Below are positions 4,813 through 15,865 of a stretch of 64,000 bases of DNA, in pieces. The position numbers and the translations under genes were made by a program. Each line of letters begins with the position of its first letter. Position 1 is the first letter of the stretch. Origin of the DNA: Devosia sp. (GTDB taxonomy: Bacteria > Pseudomonadota > Alphaproteobacteria > Rhizobiales > Devosiaceae); NCBI GenBank assembly GCA_017794705.1, contig CP051235.1:2877001-2941000 (forward strand), in the 5' to 3' direction. Below the pieces are notes generated by a model that saw only the letters and a program-made list of their open reading frames with translations, did no database searches and had not been told where the DNA came from.

Positions 4813-4845
4813 AAACAGCCAATCACCTCAAGACCTTATGGAAAC

Positions 4846-4870
4846 GCCCTGCCTCCGAGAGAGGCAGGGC
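4846..4870. terminator. Strong hairpin after the oxidoreductase gene (possible terminator)
   Basis: GCCCTGCCTC (4846-4855), loop CGAGA and GAGGCAGGGC (4861-4870) form a perfect 10-bp stem, 34 nt past the stop at 4812. No T-run follows on the + strand, so a Rho-independent role is not certain; it may protect the 3' end. The gene-free stretch 4813-5190 contains this hairpin, the repeat, the NtrC-like boxes and the sigma-54 promoter. Confidence 0.5.
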
Positions 4871-4883
4871 GCCGAGGTCATGT

Positions 4884-4906: not shown

Positions 4907-4962
4907 AAATCCGGTCCGGAAAAATTAGCGCAAAATTTCGGGTCCGTCATCTGCGGTGAATT

Positions 4963-5008
4963 GCACATGCAAAGCGCAGTTTTGAGGCATTGCCCGTTTT
5001 TTGTGCAG
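4963..5008 (+). promoter_or_regulatory. Two tandem NtrC-like enhancer boxes upstream of urtA
   Basis: Two 17-bp sequences resemble the NtrC consensus TGCAC-N7-GTGCA: TGCAC-N7-GCGCA at 4963-4979 and TGCCC-N7-GTGCA at 4992-5008. Each departs from the core by one base, and their centres are 29 bp apart, close to three helical turns. They sit about 160-190 bp before the predicted start of transcription, a usual enhancer distance for sigma-54 promoters. This is inference from sequence and context. Confidence 0.5.
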
Positions 5009-5134
5009 ATTTGATCAAGATTCAGGCAGTTGCAGGGGAGGTTTCTCGGTCGGCGGCCAGCCTCCATTCGGCAGTTTCGCCAATAAAGTCGCGTTTACAA
5101 TAGGTTAACGTTTGAAAATCGCCGCTCCGGCAGT

Positions 5135-5150
5135 TGGCACAGGGTTTGCA
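5135..5150 (+). promoter_or_regulatory. Sigma-54 (RpoN) promoter of the urt-ure operon
   Basis: TGGCACAGGGTTTGCA matches the sigma-54 consensus TGGCAC-N5-TTGCA at every defined core position. The -24 GG (5136-5137) and -12 GC (5148-5149) have exact canonical spacing. Transcription would start near 5161, leaving a 30-nt leader with ribosome site GGAGGT (5181-5186) before ATG 5191. This fits nitrogen-limitation control of urea uptake. Confidence 0.85.
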
Positions 5151-5190
5151 ATTTGGTGCCCGGTGCAAACAACAACTGTCGGAGGTAAAC

Positions 5191-6489
5191 ATGACAGTAC
5201 TACAGGGTGCGATAAAGGCCGTGGGGGCCGCAGCACTTGGTTTGACCATGCTGGGGGCAACCCCGGTTATGGCGCAGGAAGACACGATCAAGGTCGGTAT
5301 CCTGCACTCGCTGTCGGGCACGATGGCGATTTCCGAAACAACGCTCAAAGACGCCATGCTGATGCTGATCGACCAGCAGAATGCCGCTGGCGGCGTGCTG
5401 GGCCGCCAGCTGGAAGCTGTGGTTGTCGACCCGGCCTCCGACTGGCCGCTGTTCGCGGAAAAGGCCCGCGAACTCATCGAGGTCAATGGTGTAGACGTGG
5501 TGTTCGGCTGCTGGACCTCAGTGTCCCGAAAGTCGGTTCTGCCGGTGTTCGAGGAACTGAACTCGATCCTGTTCTACCCGGTTCAGTATGAAGGCGAAGA
5601 AAGCCAGCGCAACGTGTTCTACACGGGTGCTGCGCCGAACCAGCAGGCCATTCCCGCTGTCGACTATCTGATGCAGGAAGAAGGCGTGGAGCGCTGGGTT
5701 CTGGCCGGCACCGACTATGTCTACCCGCAGACCACCAACAAGATTCTTGAGCAGTACCTCAGGGATTCCGGCGTGGCTGAAGAAGACATCATGATCAACT
5801 ACACGCCGTTCGGCCATTCCGACTGGCAGACGATTGTTTCCGACATCGTGGCCTTCGGTTCGGAAGGCAAGAAGACCGCCGTGGTCTCCACCATCAATGG
5901 TGACGCCAACGTGCCGTTCTACCGCGAACTGGCCAACCAGGGCGTGGACGCTGCCGACATTCCGGTGGTCGCCTTCTCCGTGGGTGAAGAGGAACTATCC
6001 GGTTTCGATACCGGCCCGCTCGTCGGTCACCTCGCGGCATGGAACTACTTCATGTCCGAAGACACGCCTGAAAACGCCGCCTTCATCGAAGCCTGGCACG
6101 AGTTCATCGGCAACGAGGACCGCGTGACCAACGACCCGATGGAAGCCCATTACATCGGCTTCAACATGTGGGTTGAGGCGGTCGAGGCTGCGGGCACGAC
6201 CGATCCGGATGCGGTGATTGATGCGATCATCGGGGTCGAGGTGCCGAACCTGACCGGTGGCGTGTCGACCATGCTGCCGAACCACCACATCACCAAGCCG
6301 GTGCTGATCGGTGAAATCCAGGACGACGGCCAGTTCTTCACTGTGTGGCAGACGGATGGCCTGGTGCCGGGTGACGCCTGGTCCGACTACCTGCCTGAGT
6401 CGGCGCCGCTGATCGCCGACTGGACCGATCCGATCATGTGCGGAAACTACAATACCGAAACCGAAACATGCGGCGGATCCGCCATGTAA
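5191..6489 (+). CDS. urtA: Urea ABC transporter substrate-binding protein UrtA
   Basis: This is the periplasmic urea/short-amide binding protein of the five-gene Urt importer. A signal peptide (residues 1-28, ending PVMA) precedes a periplasmic-binding fold of the Leu/Ile/Val class with the typical start DTIKVGILHSLSGTMAISE. The length of 432 residues is normal for UrtA. ATG 5191 is used because the ribosome site GGAGGT lies 5 nt upstream; the longer open frame runs through the promoter. The next genes are urtB-E, and the sigma-54 promoter lies 40 nt upstream. Confidence 0.97.
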   Translation: MTVLQGAIKAVGAAALGLTMLGATPVMAQEDTIKVGILHSLSGTMAISETTLKDAMLMLIDQQNAAGGVLGRQLEAVVVDPASDWPLFAEKARELIEVNGVDVVFGCWTSVSRKSVLPVFEELNSILFYPVQYEGEESQRNVFYTGAAPNQQAIPAVDYLMQEEGVERWVLAGTDYVYPQTTNKILEQYLRDSGVAEEDIMINYTPFGHSDWQTIVSDIVAFGSEGKKTAVVSTINGDANVPFYRELANQGVDAADIPVVAFSVGEEELSGFDTGPLVGHLAAWNYFMSEDTPENAAFIEAWHEFIGNEDRVTNDPMEAHYIGFNMWVEAVEAAGTTDPDAVIDAIIGVEVPNLTGGVSTMLPNHHITKPVLIGEIQDDGQFFTVWQTDGLVPGDAWSDYLPESAPLIADWTDPIMCGNYNTETETCGGSAM

Positions 6490-6607: not shown

Positions 6608-8242
6608 ATGAGCTTCCCTCAAACACTATTCAGACTTCCAGCGCTGGCCGCGCTGCTTGTTCTCGCTGCCGTGCTGCCGCTGTCAGCGCAGGCCCAGGAC
6701 GCTGCTGCTGCGCCGCGCACCGCCGCTGAAATCGTCAATGCCATCGGCGAGGCGAGCCTTCGCGAAATTGCCGAACTGGTCGTGGAACTGGCCGCGACCG
6801 GCGAACCGGCTGCTGCCAGTGTTCTGAGCGCGCTTGAGGGTGGCGATCTTTATGCCGACGAAGCTAGCCAGACTGTCGTCATCGTCCGTGATGATGTGAT
6901 GTTCGATCCGGTCTCCGGCGCCGAGATCGGGCCGGAAGGCGATGCCGATCTCAGCCGCATCCGGGTCAACAACAGTCTGAGACGCGACATCCGCACGGTC
7001 ATCGGCGAACTGACGCTGATGAACCCTGATCCGCGCACCCGCAGCACTGCCGCTGCGTCCATGTTCCGAGATGCGGACCCGGACAATGTGGAATTGCTCA
7101 ACGAGGCGATCGACGCGGAGCCTGACGCTGGCGTGAAACTGCTGATGGAGCAGGCACGCGCAGCTTCGTTGCTGCAGAGCGAGCTGGAGCCCGATGAGTA
7201 TGCCGCGGCCATTGCCGTCATCGCCGATCGCGGTGACCGCGAAGCGCTGGCGATCCTGAATGCGCAACTGGCCAATGTGGCTGATGAACAGCGCCCGGCG
7301 CTTGAGCAGGGCATTGCCGATATCGAGCAGAACCTGGCGCTGTGGAACATCGGCCAGAACGTCTGGTACGGCATGTCGCTGGGCTCGGTGCTGTTGCTCG
7401 CGGCGATTGGTCTCGCCATCACGTTTGGGGTGATGGGCGTCATCAACATGGCGCATGGCGAAATGGTAATGCTGGGCGCCTATGCGACCTTTGTGGTGCA
7501 GGACATCATCCGCACCAGCTTTCCCGGCCTGTTTGACTATTCATTGCTCATCGCGGTGCCGGTGGCGTTTCTGGCGACCGGTCTGGTGGGCATCGCCATT
7601 GAGCGCGGGATCATCCGCTGGCTCTACGGGCGGCCTTTGGAGACTCTTCTGGCAACTTGGGGGCTGTCGCTGATCATCCAACAGGCCGTCCGGACCATTT
7701 TCGGGCCGACAAACAAGGACGTGGGCAATCCGTCATGGATGACGGGCGCGTTCGATCTCGGCGGTCTGTCGATCACCTATTCGCGCATGTGGATCGTGGT
7801 GTTTGCGATCGTGGTGTTCGCGCTGTTGCTGCTGGTTCTGAGCAAGACCAGCATCGGGCTGCAGATGCGGGCGGTGACGCAGAACCGGCGCATGGCGGCT
7901 GCCATCGGCATCCGCACCCCGTGGGTCGATGCGCTGACCTTCGGACTGGGCTCGGGGATTGCCGGCATCGCAGGCGTAGCTCTCAGCCAGATCGACAATG
8001 TGTCGCCCAATCTGGGGCAGGGCTACATAATCGACAGTTTCATGGTTGTGGTGTTTGGCGGCGTGGGGAATCTCTGGGGCACGCTCGTCGGGGCGATGAC
8101 GTTGGGGATCGCCAACAAGTTCCTTGAGCCGTTTGCCGGGGCGGTGCTGGCCAAGATCGTCATTCTGATCTGCATCATCCTGTTCATTCAGCGGCGGCCG
8201 CGCGGCCTGTTCGCGTTGAAGGGAAGGGCGGTGGAGCAATGA
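6608..8242 (+). CDS. urtB: Urea ABC transporter permease UrtB
   Basis: 544 residues, the usual long UrtB form. A signal-like N-terminal segment (residues 1-29) leads into a ~230-residue extracytoplasmic region, seen only in UrtB among LivH-type permeases. From about residue 250 come multiple membrane helices with the LivH-family stretch ITFGVMGVINMAHGEM and a C-terminal GGVGNLWGTLVGA. It pairs with UrtC to form the urea channel. It ends in an ATGA overlap with urtC, so translation is coupled. Confidence 0.96.
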   Translation: MSFPQTLFRLPALAALLVLAAVLPLSAQAQDAAAAPRTAAEIVNAIGEASLREIAELVVELAATGEPAAASVLSALEGGDLYADEASQTVVIVRDDVMFDPVSGAEIGPEGDADLSRIRVNNSLRRDIRTVIGELTLMNPDPRTRSTAAASMFRDADPDNVELLNEAIDAEPDAGVKLLMEQARAASLLQSELEPDEYAAAIAVIADRGDREALAILNAQLANVADEQRPALEQGIADIEQNLALWNIGQNVWYGMSLGSVLLLAAIGLAITFGVMGVINMAHGEMVMLGAYATFVVQDIIRTSFPGLFDYSLLIAVPVAFLATGLVGIAIERGIIRWLYGRPLETLLATWGLSLIIQQAVRTIFGPTNKDVGNPSWMTGAFDLGGLSITYSRMWIVVFAIVVFALLLLVLSKTSIGLQMRAVTQNRRMAAAIGIRTPWVDALTFGLGSGIAGIAGVALSQIDNVSPNLGQGYIIDSFMVVVFGGVGNLWGTLVGAMTLGIANKFLEPFAGAVLAKIVILICIILFIQRRPRGLFALKGRAVEQ

Positions 8243-9435
8243 TCACCACCGCGCTGTTCCGCGCCCTCGACAAGAAGGCCATCTGGGTGGTCAGCGCCAT
8301 CCTGCTGGTCGCGATCCTGGTGCCGCTGTCCAACCTGGTGCTTCCGGTCGGGCATCCGCTGCGGGTGCCGAACTATCTGGTGCCGCTTCTTGGCAAGTAC
8401 CTGACCTATGCCACGCTGGCGCTGGCGCTTGATCTGGTCTGGGGCTATTGCGGAATCCTGTCGCTGGGGCACGGCGCCTTCTTTGCGCTCGGCGGCTATG
8501 CCATGGGCATGTACCTGATGCGCCAGATCGGCGACCGGGGTGTTTATGCCAATCCGGAACTGCCCGACTTCATGGTGTTTCTGAATTACGACGCGCTGCC
8601 CTGGTACTGGCTGGGGTTCGACCAGTTCTGGTTTGCGTTGATCATGATTGCGCTGGTGCCAGGCCTTCTGGCGTTCGTGTTCGGCTGGTTCGCCTTCCGC
8701 TCGCGCGTGACCGGGGTTTACCTGTCGATCATTTCGCAGGCGATGACCTATGCACTGTTGCTGGCTTTCTTCCGCAATGACATGGGCTTTGGCGGCAATA
8801 ATGGTCTGACCGACTTCAAGGATATCCTTGGCGTCTCTGTGCAGGCGGATACGACGCGTGCGGGACTGTTTGCCGCCTCCGCGGTGCTCTTGGCGATATG
8901 TTTCATCCTTTGCGCTTCAATTGTGAATTCCAAGCTCGGCAAGGTGATGGTCGGGGTGCGCGATGCGGAAAGCCGCATGCGGTTCCTTGGCTACCGGGTG
9001 GAGAACGTGAAGACCTTCGCCTTCACCGTGTCCGGAATCATGGCCGGGTTTGCCGGGGCGCTTTACGTGCCGCAGGTCGGGATCATCAATCCGGGCGAAT
9101 TCTCGCCGGCCAATTCGATTGAAGTGGTGATCTGGACCGCAGTTGGCGGCCGCGGAACGCTGGTCGGGCCAATCATCGGGGCGATCACGGTCAACGCGGG
9201 CAAGAGCTGGTTCACCGGCGTGTTGCCCGAATACTGGCTGTTCGCGCTGGGCGGGCTGTTCGTGTTCGTCACCATGTTCCTGCCCAAGGGGATCGTTGGC
9301 ACTGCCGCCAGCGGCTGGCGGGCTTTGCGGGCGCGGTCCATTTCGAGTTCGGCCAGCGAAGGCTCCGGTGTGAAACCCGACAAGCCGCAGAACCCGGCGT
9401 CGCCGGCCAACATGCAGCCGGAGGCGGGTGAATAG
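8239..9435 (+). CDS. urtC: Urea ABC transporter permease UrtC
   Basis: A LivM-type permease of 398 residues with about 8-10 hydrophobic helices. Typical segments are LDLVWGYCGILSLGHGAFFALGGYAMG and the EAA-like loop VGVRDAESRMRFLGYRVENVK near residue 240. The ATG lies in the urtB stop (ATGA). The hydrophilic C-terminal tail of ~40 residues, rich in Ser and Pro, is common and variable in UrtC. It is the second permease of the urea importer. Confidence 0.96.
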   Translation: MITTALFRALDKKAIWVVSAILLVAILVPLSNLVLPVGHPLRVPNYLVPLLGKYLTYATLALALDLVWGYCGILSLGHGAFFALGGYAMGMYLMRQIGDRGVYANPELPDFMVFLNYDALPWYWLGFDQFWFALIMIALVPGLLAFVFGWFAFRSRVTGVYLSIISQAMTYALLLAFFRNDMGFGGNNGLTDFKDILGVSVQADTTRAGLFAASAVLLAICFILCASIVNSKLGKVMVGVRDAESRMRFLGYRVENVKTFAFTVSGIMAGFAGALYVPQVGIINPGEFSPANSIEVVIWTAVGGRGTLVGPIIGAITVNAGKSWFTGVLPEYWLFALGGLFVFVTMFLPKGIVGTAASGWRALRARSISSSASEGSGVKPDKPQNPASPANMQPEAGE

Positions 9436-9436
9436 G

Positions 9437-10195
9437 ATGGCCGAACACAAGGAAGCCCGCGGCTCGCTGCTCTATCTCGATGGCGTCACCGTCAGTTTCG
9501 ACGGGTTCCGGGCGCTCAATGCCCTGTCGCTGGTGCTGGCGCCGGGCGAAATGCGCGCCATCATTGGCCCGAACGGGGCCGGCAAGACGACGATGATGGA
9601 TATCATCACCGGTAAGACCAAGGCCGACGAAGGCGAGGTCTATTTCAACGGCGACACCGATCTCAGGACCATGGACGAGGCGCAGATCGCCAACCTCGGC
9701 ATCGGGCGAAAGTTCCAGAAGCCGACCGTCTTCGAGAGCCACACCGTCTGGGACAATCTCAACCTGGCGTTGAAAAAGGACCGCCGGGTTTTCTCCACCC
9801 TCTTCTACGATCCGTCCGCAGAAGATGTGGCACGGCTGACGGAAATCCTTGAAACCATCCGGTTGGCGGACCGCCGGGACGAACTGGCGGCAGGCTTGAG
9901 CCACGGGCAAAAGCAGTGGCTGGAAATCGGCATGCTGTTGGCGCAGGACCCCAAACTCTTGCTGGTCGACGAACCGGCAGCGGGCATGACCGACGCCGAG
10001 ACAGAGGAAACCGCCAAGCTGCTGAAAGAGATCGCCAAAACCCGCTCGGTGGTGGTGGTGGAGCACGACATGAGCTTCATCAGGGACCTGGGGGTGAAAG
10101 TCACGGTGCTGGCGGAAGGCTCGGTGCTGGCGGAAGGCTCCCTCGATCAGGTCAGCGCCAATGAACAGGTCATTGAAAGCTATTTGGGACGTTGA
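9437..10195 (+). CDS. urtD: Urea ABC transporter ATP-binding protein UrtD
   Basis: A LivG-type ATPase with Walker A GPNGAGKTT, signature LSHGQKQWLEIGMLL (the LSHG variant typical of UrtD), Walker B LLLVDEPAAGM and a switch His (VVEHDMSF). A GTG at 9428 could also start the frame, but ATG 9437 sits better behind GGAGG (9420-9424) and overlaps nothing critical. It powers urea import with UrtE. Confidence 0.95.
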   Translation: MAEHKEARGSLLYLDGVTVSFDGFRALNALSLVLAPGEMRAIIGPNGAGKTTMMDIITGKTKADEGEVYFNGDTDLRTMDEAQIANLGIGRKFQKPTVFESHTVWDNLNLALKKDRRVFSTLFYDPSAEDVARLTEILETIRLADRRDELAAGLSHGQKQWLEIGMLLAQDPKLLLVDEPAAGMTDAETEETAKLLKEIAKTRSVVVVEHDMSFIRDLGVKVTVLAEGSVLAEGSLDQVSANEQVIESYLGR

Positions 10196-10902
10196 TGATG
10201 GCCACTGAACTCAAAGTCACAAATGTCAGTCTTTTCTACGGCGCCTCGCAGGCGCTTCGGGACGTGAGCATTGACGTTACCCCCGGCAAGATCACGGCGG
10301 TGATGGGCCGCAACGGGGTCGGCAAGTCGTCGCTTTTGCGGGCGATCATGGGGTTGCAGCCGATTTCGGATGGTACGATCACCATCGGTGGCAAGGATCT
10401 GGCGGGGCTGGCCGCCTTCGGGCGGTCGCGGGCGGGGCTGGGCTACGTGCCGCAGGGGCGGGAGATCTTTCCGCTTCTAAGCGTCAAAGAGAACCTCGAG
10501 ACGGGTAAAATCGGCGTGGCGCGGGCGGCCCGGACGATTCCGGCAAAAGTCTTCGAATTGTTTCCGGTGCTCAAGGAAATGCTGTCGCGGCGCGGCGGTG
10601 ACCTGTCGGGCGGGCAGCAACAACAGCTGGCGATCGGCCGGGCGCTGGTCACTCAGCCGCAGGTGCTGGTGCTGGATGAACCGACCGAAGGCATTCAGCC
10701 CTCGATCATCAAGGATATCGGCCGGGCGCTGACCTATCTGCGCGATGAGGAGGGGATGACCATTCTTCTGGTCGAGCAATATCTCGATTTCTGCCGGGAG
10801 CTGGCAGACGATGTTTACATCATGGATCGCGGCGCTATCGTGTTTGGCGGTCCGGCAGCAAGGCTGGACGATGCAGATGTCAGGGCACATCTGACCGTTT
10901 GA
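10195..10902 (+). CDS. urtE: Urea ABC transporter ATP-binding protein UrtE
   Basis: A LivF-type ATPase of about 235 residues: Walker A GRNGVGKSS, signature LSGGQQQQLAIGRAL, Walker B LVLDEPTEGIQPS. ATG 10195 overlaps the urtD stop (TGATG); an adjacent ATG at 10198 is an alternative. ureD begins 7 nt after the stop, which ties the transporter and urease genes into one transcript. Confidence 0.95.
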   Translation: MMATELKVTNVSLFYGASQALRDVSIDVTPGKITAVMGRNGVGKSSLLRAIMGLQPISDGTITIGGKDLAGLAAFGRSRAGLGYVPQGREIFPLLSVKENLETGKIGVARAARTIPAKVFELFPVLKEMLSRRGGDLSGGQQQQLAIGRALVTQPQVLVLDEPTEGIQPSIIKDIGRALTYLRDEEGMTILLVEQYLDFCRELADDVYIMDRGAIVFGGPAARLDDADVRAHLTV

Positions 10903-10909
10903 GGGGACG

Positions 10910-11749
10910 GTGCTTTTGGGGACGGAAACCGCAGCAGAGCTCAAAGAGACCGCATCGCTGCAGCGCAGCGCCGGCGAGGGGCGGCTTGCAGTTGCGGCAC
11001 TGGACGGACGTACACGCATCGCGCGGCTCTATCAGGGCGGATCTGCGAAGATACGCGTGCCGCGGCTCGGGCAGGCGGGTCTCGAGGCCGTGCTGATCAA
11101 TACGTCCGGCGGGCTGACCGGTGGCGACCGGATGGACTGGGCGCTGGAGGCCGGGGCAGGCACGCATCTGACCCTGACCACGCAGGCCTGCGAAAAGGTT
11201 TATCGCAGCAGTGGGGGGCGGGCCGAGGTCCGCACGAGGATCAGTGTTGGGGAAGATGCTCGGGTTGACTGGCTGCCGCAGGAAACCATTCTGTTTGACC
11301 GATCGGCACTCAGCCGCCGGATAGATGTCGAACTTTCCCGCACTGCCGAATTCATGGCCGTCGAGCCGGTGATCATCGGGCGCAAGGGCATGGGGGAGAC
11401 GGTGTCCGGGGCCGAGTTCCACGACCGCTGGCGGATCAGCCGGGACGGAAAACTAGTCCACGCCGAGGACACACGTCTGGAGGGCGACATTCCCGAGGTG
11501 CTGCGGCAGGCGGCCACAACCGGGGGGCAACTGGCATTCGCGACGGTGCTGTTTGCCGGGCAACGGGCCGAGGCGCTGAAGGCGCGGCTGAATGACCTAA
11601 AAGCCGACCGATACACCAGCATGAGTGCGTGGAACGGAAAACTGGTGATCCGGCTTGTGGCGGCGGAAGGTTTTGCGCTTAGAAAGAGGCTGCTGCCGGT
11701 GCTTTCGGCGCTCAGGGATGTGCCGTTGCCGCGCATCTGGCACAGCTAG
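10910..11749 (+). CDS. ureD: Urease accessory protein UreD
   Basis: 279 residues with the UreD/UreH markers [27 protein letters not shown] and [11 protein letters not shown]. UreD joins UreF and UreG in the complex that delivers nickel and CO2 to the urease active site. The start is a GTG right after the sequence GAGGGGAC. It stands at the head of the urease block, directly after urtE. Confidence 0.96.
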
Positions 11750-11766
11750 GACATACGGGACGATCG

Positions 11767-12069
11767 ATGAATCTGACACCGCGTGAAAAAGACAAGCTGA
11801 TGATTTCCATGGCTGCCATGGTGGCGCGCCGTCGGCTGGAACGGGGGGTGAAGCTCAATCACCCTGAGGCCATTGCGCTGATCACCGATTTCATCGTCGA
11901 GGGCGCGCGCGACGGGCGGTCCGTGGCCGATCTGATGGAAGCCGGCGCGCACGTCATCACCCGCGACCAGGTGATGGATGGCATTGCTTCGATGATCCAC
12001 GATGTACAGGTGGAAGCCACATTTCCGGACGGCACCAAGCTGGTGACTGTGCATGAACCCATTCGCTGA
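11767..12069 (+). CDS. ureA: Urease gamma subunit UreA
   Basis: 100 residues, full length, with the family start [20 protein letters not shown] and the end [20 protein letters not shown]. It is the smallest structural subunit of the cytoplasmic (UreABC)3 urease. It follows ureD by 17 nt. Unlike the common ureAB order, a hupE/ureJ-like gene lies before ureB. Confidence 0.98.
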
Positions 12070-12160
12070 GGCGCTGCAATTGCATCCGGAATCAAGCATA
12101 GTGACAAACAGGCGTGACCCAAACCGGGGCGCCCTGTCGACCAAACAAGGGACAAAGACA

Positions 12161-12751
12161 ATGATCAAACGACTTTCCGTTGCCGCAGCGGCCACATTGC
12201 TGGCCACCGCCCCGGCATTTGCCCACCTTGATCCGGCCACGCATGGCTCGTTCATGGCCGGGTTTTCGCATCCGTTCTTCGGGCCGGACCATATTCTGGC
12301 GATGGTGGCGGTCGGGCTCTGGGCGGCCTCTGTGGGTGGCCGGGCGCTCTGGGCCGTGCCTTTGGCGTTCGTCGCCACGATGGCGTTGGGATTTGGTGCC
12401 GCGATATTCGGCATGCCGCTGCCTTTCGTCGAGCCGGTGATCCTGGCCTCGGTCATTTTCATTGGTGTGATGGTGGCGCTTGCTTTGCCGATTCCGACAG
12501 CTGGCGTTGCTGGCGTTGTTGCTTTTTTCGCGCTGTTCCACGGCCATGCGCATGGCGGTGAGCTCGGTGCAGCGGGTGCCTGGGAATTTGCTGCCGGGTT
12601 CGTGATTGCGACCGCCGTCCTGCATGCGCTCGGCGTCGGACTGGGCGTGGGTTCGGGCGTGTTGCTGAAGGGCAGGTTCGGACAAAACGTGTTGCGTGCC
12701 CTCGGCGGCTTGGCCGCGCTGGGTGGCGCATGGCTGGCGTTCGCCGGCTGA
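12161..12751 (+). CDS. ureJ: HupE/UreJ-family nickel permease
   Basis: About 196 residues: a signal-like N-terminus ([21 protein letters not shown]) and six further hydrophobic segments. The family metal motif [12 protein letters not shown] is near residue 40, and a second His cluster, FHGHAHGG, lies near residue 127. HupE/UreJ proteins import nickel for hydrogenase or urease; placement between ureA and ureB points to urease. ATG 12161 is preferred over the longer frame, which would lack a clear signal. Confidence 0.92.
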
Positions 12752-12762
12752 TCGGAGGCAGC

Positions 12763-13068
12763 ATGATTCCCGGAGAGGTCATCACCGCAGACGGTGATAT
12801 CGAGCTGAATGTTGGCGCCGCCGAAGTGGCGCTCGAGGTGACCAACACCGGCGACCGGCCGGTGCAGGTGGGCTCGCACTATCATTTCTTCGAGACCAAT
12901 CCGGGCCTCAGTTTCGACCGCGACAAGGCGCGCGGTATGCGGCTCAATATCGCCGCGGGCACTGCCGTCCGCTTCGAGCCGGGGCAGACCCGCGAGGTCA
13001 GGCTGGTGCCGCTCAGCGGCGAACGCAAGGTGTTCGGGTTCCAGCAAAAGATCATGGGTGCGCTGTGA
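12763..13068 (+). CDS. ureB: Urease beta subunit UreB
   Basis: 101 residues, full length, starting [16 protein letters not shown], with [18 protein letters not shown] and the C-terminal [16 protein letters not shown]. Ribosome site CGGAGG (12753-12758) selects ATG 12763 and overlaps the preceding stop. It is a structural urease subunit. Its stop overlaps the GTG of the following lprI-like gene (GTGA). Confidence 0.98.
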
Positions 13069-13466
13069 GAGTCTTGCTGGCGGCGGCCCTTGTGTTGGCG
13101 CTGGCATTTCCTGCTTCCGCACAGGAGTGGGACTGCACCGATGCAAGCAATCTCCCCCAGCAAGGGCTGAACCATTGTGCCTGGATCGATTTTGAAGAAG
13201 CCGACCGGGCGCTCAATGTCGCCTGGGAGCTGGTCAAGGAAGAGATCGACGCGCGTGATGCCGACATGCCCGAGCAATGGAAGGGCTGGGGCAAGGCGCT
13301 GCTGGACGCGCAACGGGCCTGGATCACGTATCGCGATGCGCATTGCGAGGCCGAGGGGTTTCAGGTTCGCGGCGGGTCCATGGAGCCGCTGATCGTGGCG
13401 ACCTGCAAGACCCATGAAACGCGCGAACGCATTCAGGATTTGCTGTTGCTGATCGAGACTTACTAG
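13065..13466 (+). CDS. LprI-type (DUF1311) periplasmic protein
   Basis: 133 residues. A signal peptide (1-19, ending ASA) is followed by a DUF1311/LprI domain: an N-terminal Cys pair, [13 protein letters not shown], and the hallmark [20 protein letters not shown]. LprI of Mycobacterium inhibits lysozyme, but most family members are uncharacterised. The GTG start overlaps the ureB stop by 4 nt, so translation is probably coupled to urease. The function in this setting is unknown; protection of the envelope or a metallocentre-related role are guesses. Confidence 0.85.
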
Positions 13467-13537: not shown

Positions 13538-13882
13538 TCAGGCGTCGTCGATCTCGTTACGTTCAACAATCACGAATAGCGAGCCGTCTTCATCCAGGTC
13601 CACGCCAACGACGTCATACGGGTCGAAGCGGTTCTCCTCGAAGAAGGCGGATAGGGCTGTGTTGGTATCCAGTGCCTGACGCAACTCATCGATGTTGGTC
13701 GGCAGCATATGATCGGCATTTGTGGAGTCATTCAGATAGACTGCCAAGGCGCTGTTGGCGCTCTCGATTTGCTGAACATTGGCGCCAGCCAGATCATAAG
13801 GTGCGCTCATCTGTGCGTTGGCTCCGGTGATGCCGCCAAGTGTCAGTCCAGCTGCGAGTAGAACGGTTTTCAGATTGGTCAT
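13538..13882 (-). CDS. Small secreted protein of unknown function, opposite strand inside the urease cluster
   Basis: 114 residues. A clear signal peptide (MTNLKTVLLAAGLTLGGITG, ending ANA) precedes a ~90-residue acidic domain with no family I recognise (NVQQIESANSALAVYL..., SLFVIVERNEIDD). The ribosome site GGAAGGAG is very strong, 8-9 nt before ATG. The gene runs against ureB and ureC and so interrupts the urease operon. The signal peptide, strong ribosome site and normal codon use support a real gene. Confidence 0.75.
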   Translation of the reverse strand: MTNLKTVLLAAGLTLGGITGANAQMSAPYDLAGANVQQIESANSALAVYLNDSTNADHMLPTNIDELRQALDTNTALSAFFEENRFDPYDVVGVDLDEDGSLFVIVERNEIDDA

Positions 13883-14017: not shown

Positions 14018-14161
14018 TTGTTTCCGGGGCTTGCGGTGTGCGGCGCTAGACGGGCATTTTGAGTATTGCAGCTTGCAAGCAACGAGCGCTGCAGACATAG
14101 TCGGGTTCGGGAAGCTGGGCCGTTTACACAAGTTTGCGCTACGCAAGGTTGGACTTTTGCC

Positions 14162-15865
14162 ATGAAAATTTCCCGCGAAACATATGCCGCCATGTATGGC
14201 CCCACCACCGGCGACAAGGTGCGATTGGCCGACACCGATCTCATCATCGAGGTAGAAAGAGACTTCACCACCTATGGTGAGGAAGTGAAGTTCGGCGGCG
14301 GCAAGGTGATCCGCGACGGGATGGGCCAGAGCCAGGCGACGCGGGCCGAGGGCGCTGTTGATACGGTGATCACCAATGCGTTGGTGGTTGATGCGACCGG
14401 TATTTACAAGGCCGATATCGGCATTTCGAATGGGGTGATTTCGGGGATCGGCAAGGCAGGCAATCCGGACACGCAGCCGAACGTGGACATCATAATCGGC
14501 CCCTCCACCGAGGCGATTGCGGGTGAGGGCAATATCCTGACCGCCGGCGGGTTTGACGCGCATATCCATTTCATCTGCCCGCAGCAGATCGAAGAGGCGC
14601 TGATGGCGGGCCTCACGACCATGCTGGGTGGCGGGTCCGGGCCTGCGCACGGCACGCTCGCGACCACCTGCACCGGCGCCTGGCATCTGGAGCAGATGAT
14701 CGGCGCAGCGGACGCCTTTCCGATGAACCTGGCCTTTGCCGGGAAGGGCAATTCGTCGGTGGCAGCGCCGCTGATCGAGATGATTGAATCCGGTGCCGCG
14801 GCGCTGAAACTGCATGAGGACTGGGGTACGACCCCGGCGGCCATCGACAACTGCCTGAATGTTGCAGACGACCATGATGTGCAGGTGATGATCCACACCG
14901 ACACGCTGAACGAGAGCGGTTTCGTGGAGAACACGATCGATTCGTTCAAGGGGCGGACCATCCACGCCTTTCACACGGAAGGGGCAGGTGGCGGACATGC
15001 GCCGGACATCATCAAGGTGGCCGGGCTTTCAAACGTCATCCCCTCGTCGACCAATCCGACGCGGCCCTACACGGTCAACACGATCGCCGAACATCTCGAC
15101 ATGCTGATGGTGTGCCACCATCTCGATCCGTCGATCCCGGAGGATATTGCCTTTGCCGAAAGCCGGATCCGCAAGGAGACGATTGCCGCGGAGGATATCC
15201 TTCACGACATGGGCGCCTTTTCGATCATCTCGTCGGACAGCCAGGCGATGGGCCGGGTGGGTGAGGTGATCATCCGGACCTGGCAGACAGCCGACAAGAT
15301 GAAGAAGCAGCGTGGGCGGTTGAGCGAGGAAACCGGTGACAACGACAATTTTCGGGTCAAACGCTACATCGCCAAGTACACGATTAACCCGGCGATCGCG
15401 CAGGGCGTCTCGAACCACATCGGCTCGATCGAGGTGGGCAAACGGGCCGACCTGGTGTTGTGGAAGCCGGCCTTCTTCGGGGTGAAGCCGGAGATGGTGT
15501 TGCTGGGCGGCACGATCGCCGCGGCGCCGATGGGCGATCCGAATGCCTCGATCCCCACCCCGCAACCCATGCACTATCGCTACATGTTCGGCGCCTACGG
15601 CAAGTCGCGGACCAATTCCTCGGTGACGTTCATCTCCGCTGCTGCCGAGGCGGCGGGTTTGCGGAACCGGCTGGGGCTGGCCAAACAGACCCTGGCCGTA
15701 GAGAATGTGCGGGGCGGGATTTCCAAGGCCTCCATGGTGATGAATTCGGCGACACCCGAGATCGATGTCGATCCGGAAACCTATGAAGTCAGGGCCAACG
15801 GCGAACTGCTGACCTGTGACCCGGCCACCGAACTGCCGATGGCGCAGCGTTACTTCATGTATTGA
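14162..15865 (+). CDS. ureC: Urease alpha subunit UreC
   Basis: 567 residues, full length. The catalytic subunit hydrolyses urea to ammonia and carbamate at a dinickel centre. All active-site residues are present: H134 and H136 (DAHIHFICP), carbamylated K216 (ALKLHEDWG), H218, H245, H271 ([12 protein letters not shown]), the flap C318-H319 (VCHHLDP) and D359 (SSDSQAMGR). ATG 14162 gives the normal N-terminus [19 protein letters not shown]; the ribosome site is weak. It is separated from ureA/ureB by a secreted gene on the other strand. Confidence 0.99.

Follow-up and report, generated by a model that had tools for sequence, protein, structure and literature searches.

A standard sigma-54/NtrC nitrogen-control promoter very probably (about 90% by our estimate) lies upstream of urtA in Devosia sp. 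and drives urtABCDE, ureD, ureA, a hupE/ureJ-type gene, ureB and lprI. Three elements ahead of urtA, in the 64,000-nucleotide stretch of DNA that was analysed (hereafter the window), make up this candidate promoter:

4962-4978, no strand assigned: upstream NtrC-type enhancer box TGCACATGCAAAGCGCA (TGC-N11-GCA), from a relatives-only matrix
4991-5007, no strand assigned: second NtrC-type enhancer box TGCCCGTTTTTTGTGCA (TGC-N11-GCA), from a relatives-only matrix
5135-5150, plus strand: sigma-54 (-24/-12) promoter element TGGCACAGGGTTTGCA, from pattern, matrix and relatives

The sigma-54 element sits exactly where the original prediction had placed it, has the form TGGCAC-N5-TTGC with a GG-GC distance of 10 bp, and has a start codon nearby, with 40 bp between its end (5150) and the urtA ATG (5191). 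The accompanying description of it as full consensus was slightly generous, since TGGCACAGGGTTTGCA has one mismatch to the strict form TGGCACGNNNNTTGCW (A for G at position 7, which is variable among relatives); the element is nevertheless one of just four exact occurrences of TGGCACNNNNNTTGCW (TGGCACN5TTGCW) on both strands of the 3.3-Mb, single-contig genome, in which the reversed pattern, used as a control, had no match. Against a matrix whose training sites all came from relatives, the urtA element scored 23.3, and the runner-up in the window scored 14.6. A TTG at 5134 was considered as the start codon of urtA and rejected because it falls within the element. Placed from the -12 GC, the transcription start would be at about 5160.

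Both boxes stood out against a matrix built from relatives' TGC-N11-GCA boxes with the window excluded, the box at 4991-5007 ranking first and that at 4962-4978 eighth among 63,984 positions, and they were the window's only pair 17-64 bp apart at that matrix score. The distance between them is 29 bp, about three helical turns, as had been noted before, but the coordinates originally assigned (4963-4979 and 4992-5008) were 1 bp too high. Their centres fall at about -190 and -161 relative to the start expected near 5160, in agreement with the predicted distance of about 160-190 bp. In enterobacteria, the glnA enhancer is a pair of NtrC sites upstream of a sigma-54 promoter, and the likeness to such classic nitrogen-control enhancers that had been suggested for urtA holds: in both cases two 17-bp palindromes separated by about three helical turns precede a -24/-12 element. 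The urtA boxes differ from enteric glnA in having the core TGC-N11-GCA rather than the full TGCACC-N5-GGTGCA, and in lying at about -160 to -190. Boxes resembling the one at 4991-5007 precede urtA in two of the relatives' loci (L082 and L086).

A third TGC-N11-GCA at 4850-4866 (rank 22) was rejected as a box, as it consists of the arms of a hairpin, GCCCTGCCTC-CGAGA-GAGGCAGGGC. This perfect, GC-rich hairpin (4845-4871), whose arms resemble an NtrC box, directly follows the upstream aldo/keto-reductase-like gene and is probably that gene's terminator, though no T-run comes after it.

To what extent such motifs might arise by chance in an AT-richer intergenic stretch, with urtA transcribed from an ordinary sigma-70 promoter, has to be weighed, since in the window neither motif was in excess when searched by loose consensus patterns: a two-mismatch sigma-54 scan gave 14 matches versus 14.97 expected, and a three-mismatch TGCACC-N5-GGTGCA scan was at chance level with 50 matches versus 47.6 expected. 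Scans this loose (2-3 mismatches) show no excess over shuffles and so are unable to judge the sites of either motif. The chance explanation seems to us extremely improbable, given the genome-wide rarity of the exact sigma-54 match, the failure to find a sigma-70-like promoter between 4800 and 5200, and the behaviour of both motifs in relatives.

We compared 108 urtA upstream regions, comprising the Devosia sp. locus and relatives; by urtA itself the best match was Pelagibacterium lentulum (86% identity over the best segment), with several Devosia species next at 80-84%, so that the genome most likely belongs to the Devosia/Pelagibacterium group of Hyphomicrobiales. After reorientation of minus-strand whole-genome loci, 48 of the 108 loci (42 when not reoriented) had a sigma-54 site no more than 250 bp ahead of urtA, versus none for the reversed pattern and one for the opposite strand, and 60 had no recognisable site; since the set probably includes some genomes twice (e.g., L014 and L090), these locus counts are not fully independent. 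Box enrichment was specific to the N11 spacing, for TGC-N11-GCA occurred 33 times upstream in 41 sigma-54-bearing loci (counted without reorienting minus-strand whole-genome loci), against 3-12 occurrences for each other spacing from 5 to 17, so that its frequency was three to ten times that of these half-sites when spaced otherwise. In the reoriented 48-locus set this spacing control was noisier, with gaps of 15 and 16 giving 25 and 27, probably because the region there extends over the sigma-54 element and into the start of the gene; of the two, the upstream-only control with 41 loci is the cleaner. A perfect TGC-N11-GCA was found within the 400 bp searched in only 28 of the 48 sigma-54-bearing loci, and pairs of boxes in relatives were 28, 30, 31, 42, 59 and 59 bp apart. 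Thus the sigma-54 site and the type of box are kept, but the number of boxes, their distance and their spacing are not exactly conserved, and the proposed check that relatives would carry the boxes at the same distance comes out true only loosely.

The nitrogen-control reading also depends on the genome encoding the proteins needed, and we found both RpoN (PF04552, 224 bits) and NtrC (TIGR01818, 655 bits against an equivalog cut-off of 559). The ntrC gene forms a tandem pair with what is presumably ntrB, preceded by a dusB-like ORF, both of these names being ones we assigned from general knowledge of the gene arrangement. The genome encodes six strong sigma-54-activator domains including NtrX, which scored above its own cut-off, and on this ground the urtA promoter could be a real sigma-54 promoter whose boxes serve another enhancer-binding protein, such as NtrX or another of the sigma-54 activators. 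We regard this as very unlikely, though less so than chance. The same boxes lie ahead of glnK-amtB in the Devosia sp. genome (genes named by reading translations), as a pair 30 bp apart with an imperfect sigma-54-like element, TTGGCACAGGACTTGAG; since glnK-amtB is a classic NtrC target, its boxes act as internal positive controls. Moreover, TGC-N11-GCA is established as an NtrC motif, a site of this form having been footprinted by NtrC in S. meliloti (PMC10746234).

Two further places in the genome carried boxes of this kind. An NtrC-type pair lies upstream of a second amtB-like gene (L164, G000:C1:1826652-1826707), where no clear sigma-54 element was found. Three TGC-N11-GCA boxes, two of them overlapping, occur without a sigma-54 element where an ABC transporter substrate-binding gene begins (L166, G000:C1:3144786-3144853), possibly another NtrC target or possibly chance.

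Downstream of the promoter we identified the following genes:

5191-6489, plus strand: urtA, urea ABC transporter substrate-binding protein (TIGR03407, 553 bits, cut-off 493)
6608-8242, plus strand: urtB, permease (TIGR03409)
8239-9435, plus strand: urtC, permease (TIGR03408)
9428-10195, plus strand: urtD, ATP-binding protein (TIGR03411)
10192-10902, plus strand: urtE, ATP-binding protein (TIGR03410)
10910-11749, plus strand: ureD, urease accessory protein (PF01774), 7 bp past urtE
11767-12069, plus strand: ureA, urease gamma subunit (NF009712)
12161-12751, plus strand: hupE/ureJ-type gene (PF04955), an internal ATG of ORF 12053-12751 being chosen as its start
12763-13068, plus strand: ureB, urease beta subunit (NF009682)
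13065-13466, plus strand: lprI, LprI-family secreted protein gene (PF07007), the last of the head-to-tail run
13538-13882, minus strand: 114-residue secreted-looking ORF with no family match, between ureB/lprI and ureC
14156-15865, plus strand: ureC, urease alpha subunit

The genes from urtA to lprI run head-to-tail on one strand, with urease genes directly after urtE, and they overlap or are separated by small gaps except at two points: urtA and urtB are 118 bp apart, and some 90 bp precede the hupE/ureJ-type gene (counted from the internal ATG). This order fits the original proposal that urea uptake and the first of the urease genes would be controlled together, with ureC cut off from the run by the opposite-strand ORF. 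No homologue of that ORF lies close to ureC in any of 11 relatives, which gives it the look of a lineage-specific insertion splitting the urease cluster. In most of the same 11 relatives ureB and ureC are separated by several hundred bases or more, and with the opposite-strand ORF these wide gaps indicate that the sigma-54 transcript from urtA probably ends before ureC. Neither a sigma-54 nor a sigma-70-like site was found upstream of ureC, and the arrangement suggests that this catalytic subunit would need its own promoter or read-through.

What we infer for the urtA promoter, namely NtrC binding, the start point, the nitrogen response and the length of the transcript, would then combine as follows. 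When nitrogen is limited NtrB would phosphorylate NtrC, which would bind both TGC-N11-GCA boxes (4962-4978 and 4991-5007) and oligomerise; by DNA looping and with ATP, NtrC would open the promoter at 5135-5150, where sigma-54 RNA polymerase would be held, and transcription would proceed from about 5160 through urtABCDE, ureD, ureA, the hupE/ureJ-type gene, ureB and lprI.

Such an arrangement is already known in related bacteria, and the Devosia sp. case adds an example. NtrC control of urtABCDEF and ureABC has been predicted in Rhizobiales and Rhodobacterales (PMC5343134), a comparative prediction that resembles ours in placing urt and ure genes under predicted NtrC control. According to the available part of a report on Bradyrhizobium sp. 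DOA9 (PMC13207237), a sigma-54 site, TGGCATGGTTCTTGC, lies at -77 of urtABC and expression of urtA-D was reduced in rpoN mutants; the likeness is a -24/-12 element close upstream of urtA, whereas the genus is another one and a double NtrC box for urtABC is not described in that part of the report. In Paracoccus denitrificans, urea transport genes were induced on nitrate versus ammonium (PMC5424462).

The other clean promoter with a sigma-54 site and a double box that we found in the genome (L132, G000:C1:1055520-1055638, minus strand; also L169) has two TGC-N11-GCA boxes, which begin 104 and 76 bp upstream and are 28 bp apart. First in the operon behind it is a guanidine-I riboswitch (RF00442 in Rfam; 76.5 bits, cut-off 63). 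Next come the genes for an ABC transporter, its substrate-binding protein matching TIGR03427, and for an enzyme of the arginase family; among solved structures, the latter is closest to 7esr/7oi1 (E-value 9e-161), entries labelled 'Probable agmatinase 2'. We take 7esr/7oi1 to be GdmH, a guanidine hydrolase whose products are urea and ammonia; the arginase-family protein is thus probably a guanidine hydrolase. By its motifs, the operon is apparently controlled both by nitrogen status and by guanidine. We tentatively consider it possible, at somewhat less than even odds, that NtrC and sigma-54 co-activate urea uptake and this riboswitch-gated guanidine-import and guanidine-hydrolase operon as one nitrogen-scavenging circuit, with ureC separately controlled.

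For the Devosia sp. lineage the urtA promoter provides a well-supported regulatory annotation of urea uptake, leaves the understanding of nitrogen control unchanged, and illustrates that a motif reading in a single genome can be confirmed through conservation. The guanidine promoter, in which NtrC/sigma-54 elements are combined with a riboswitch, is of greater interest as a lead: if the proposed circuit is real, guanidine would be split into urea and ammonia and the urea then put to use, with one nitrogen signal for both.
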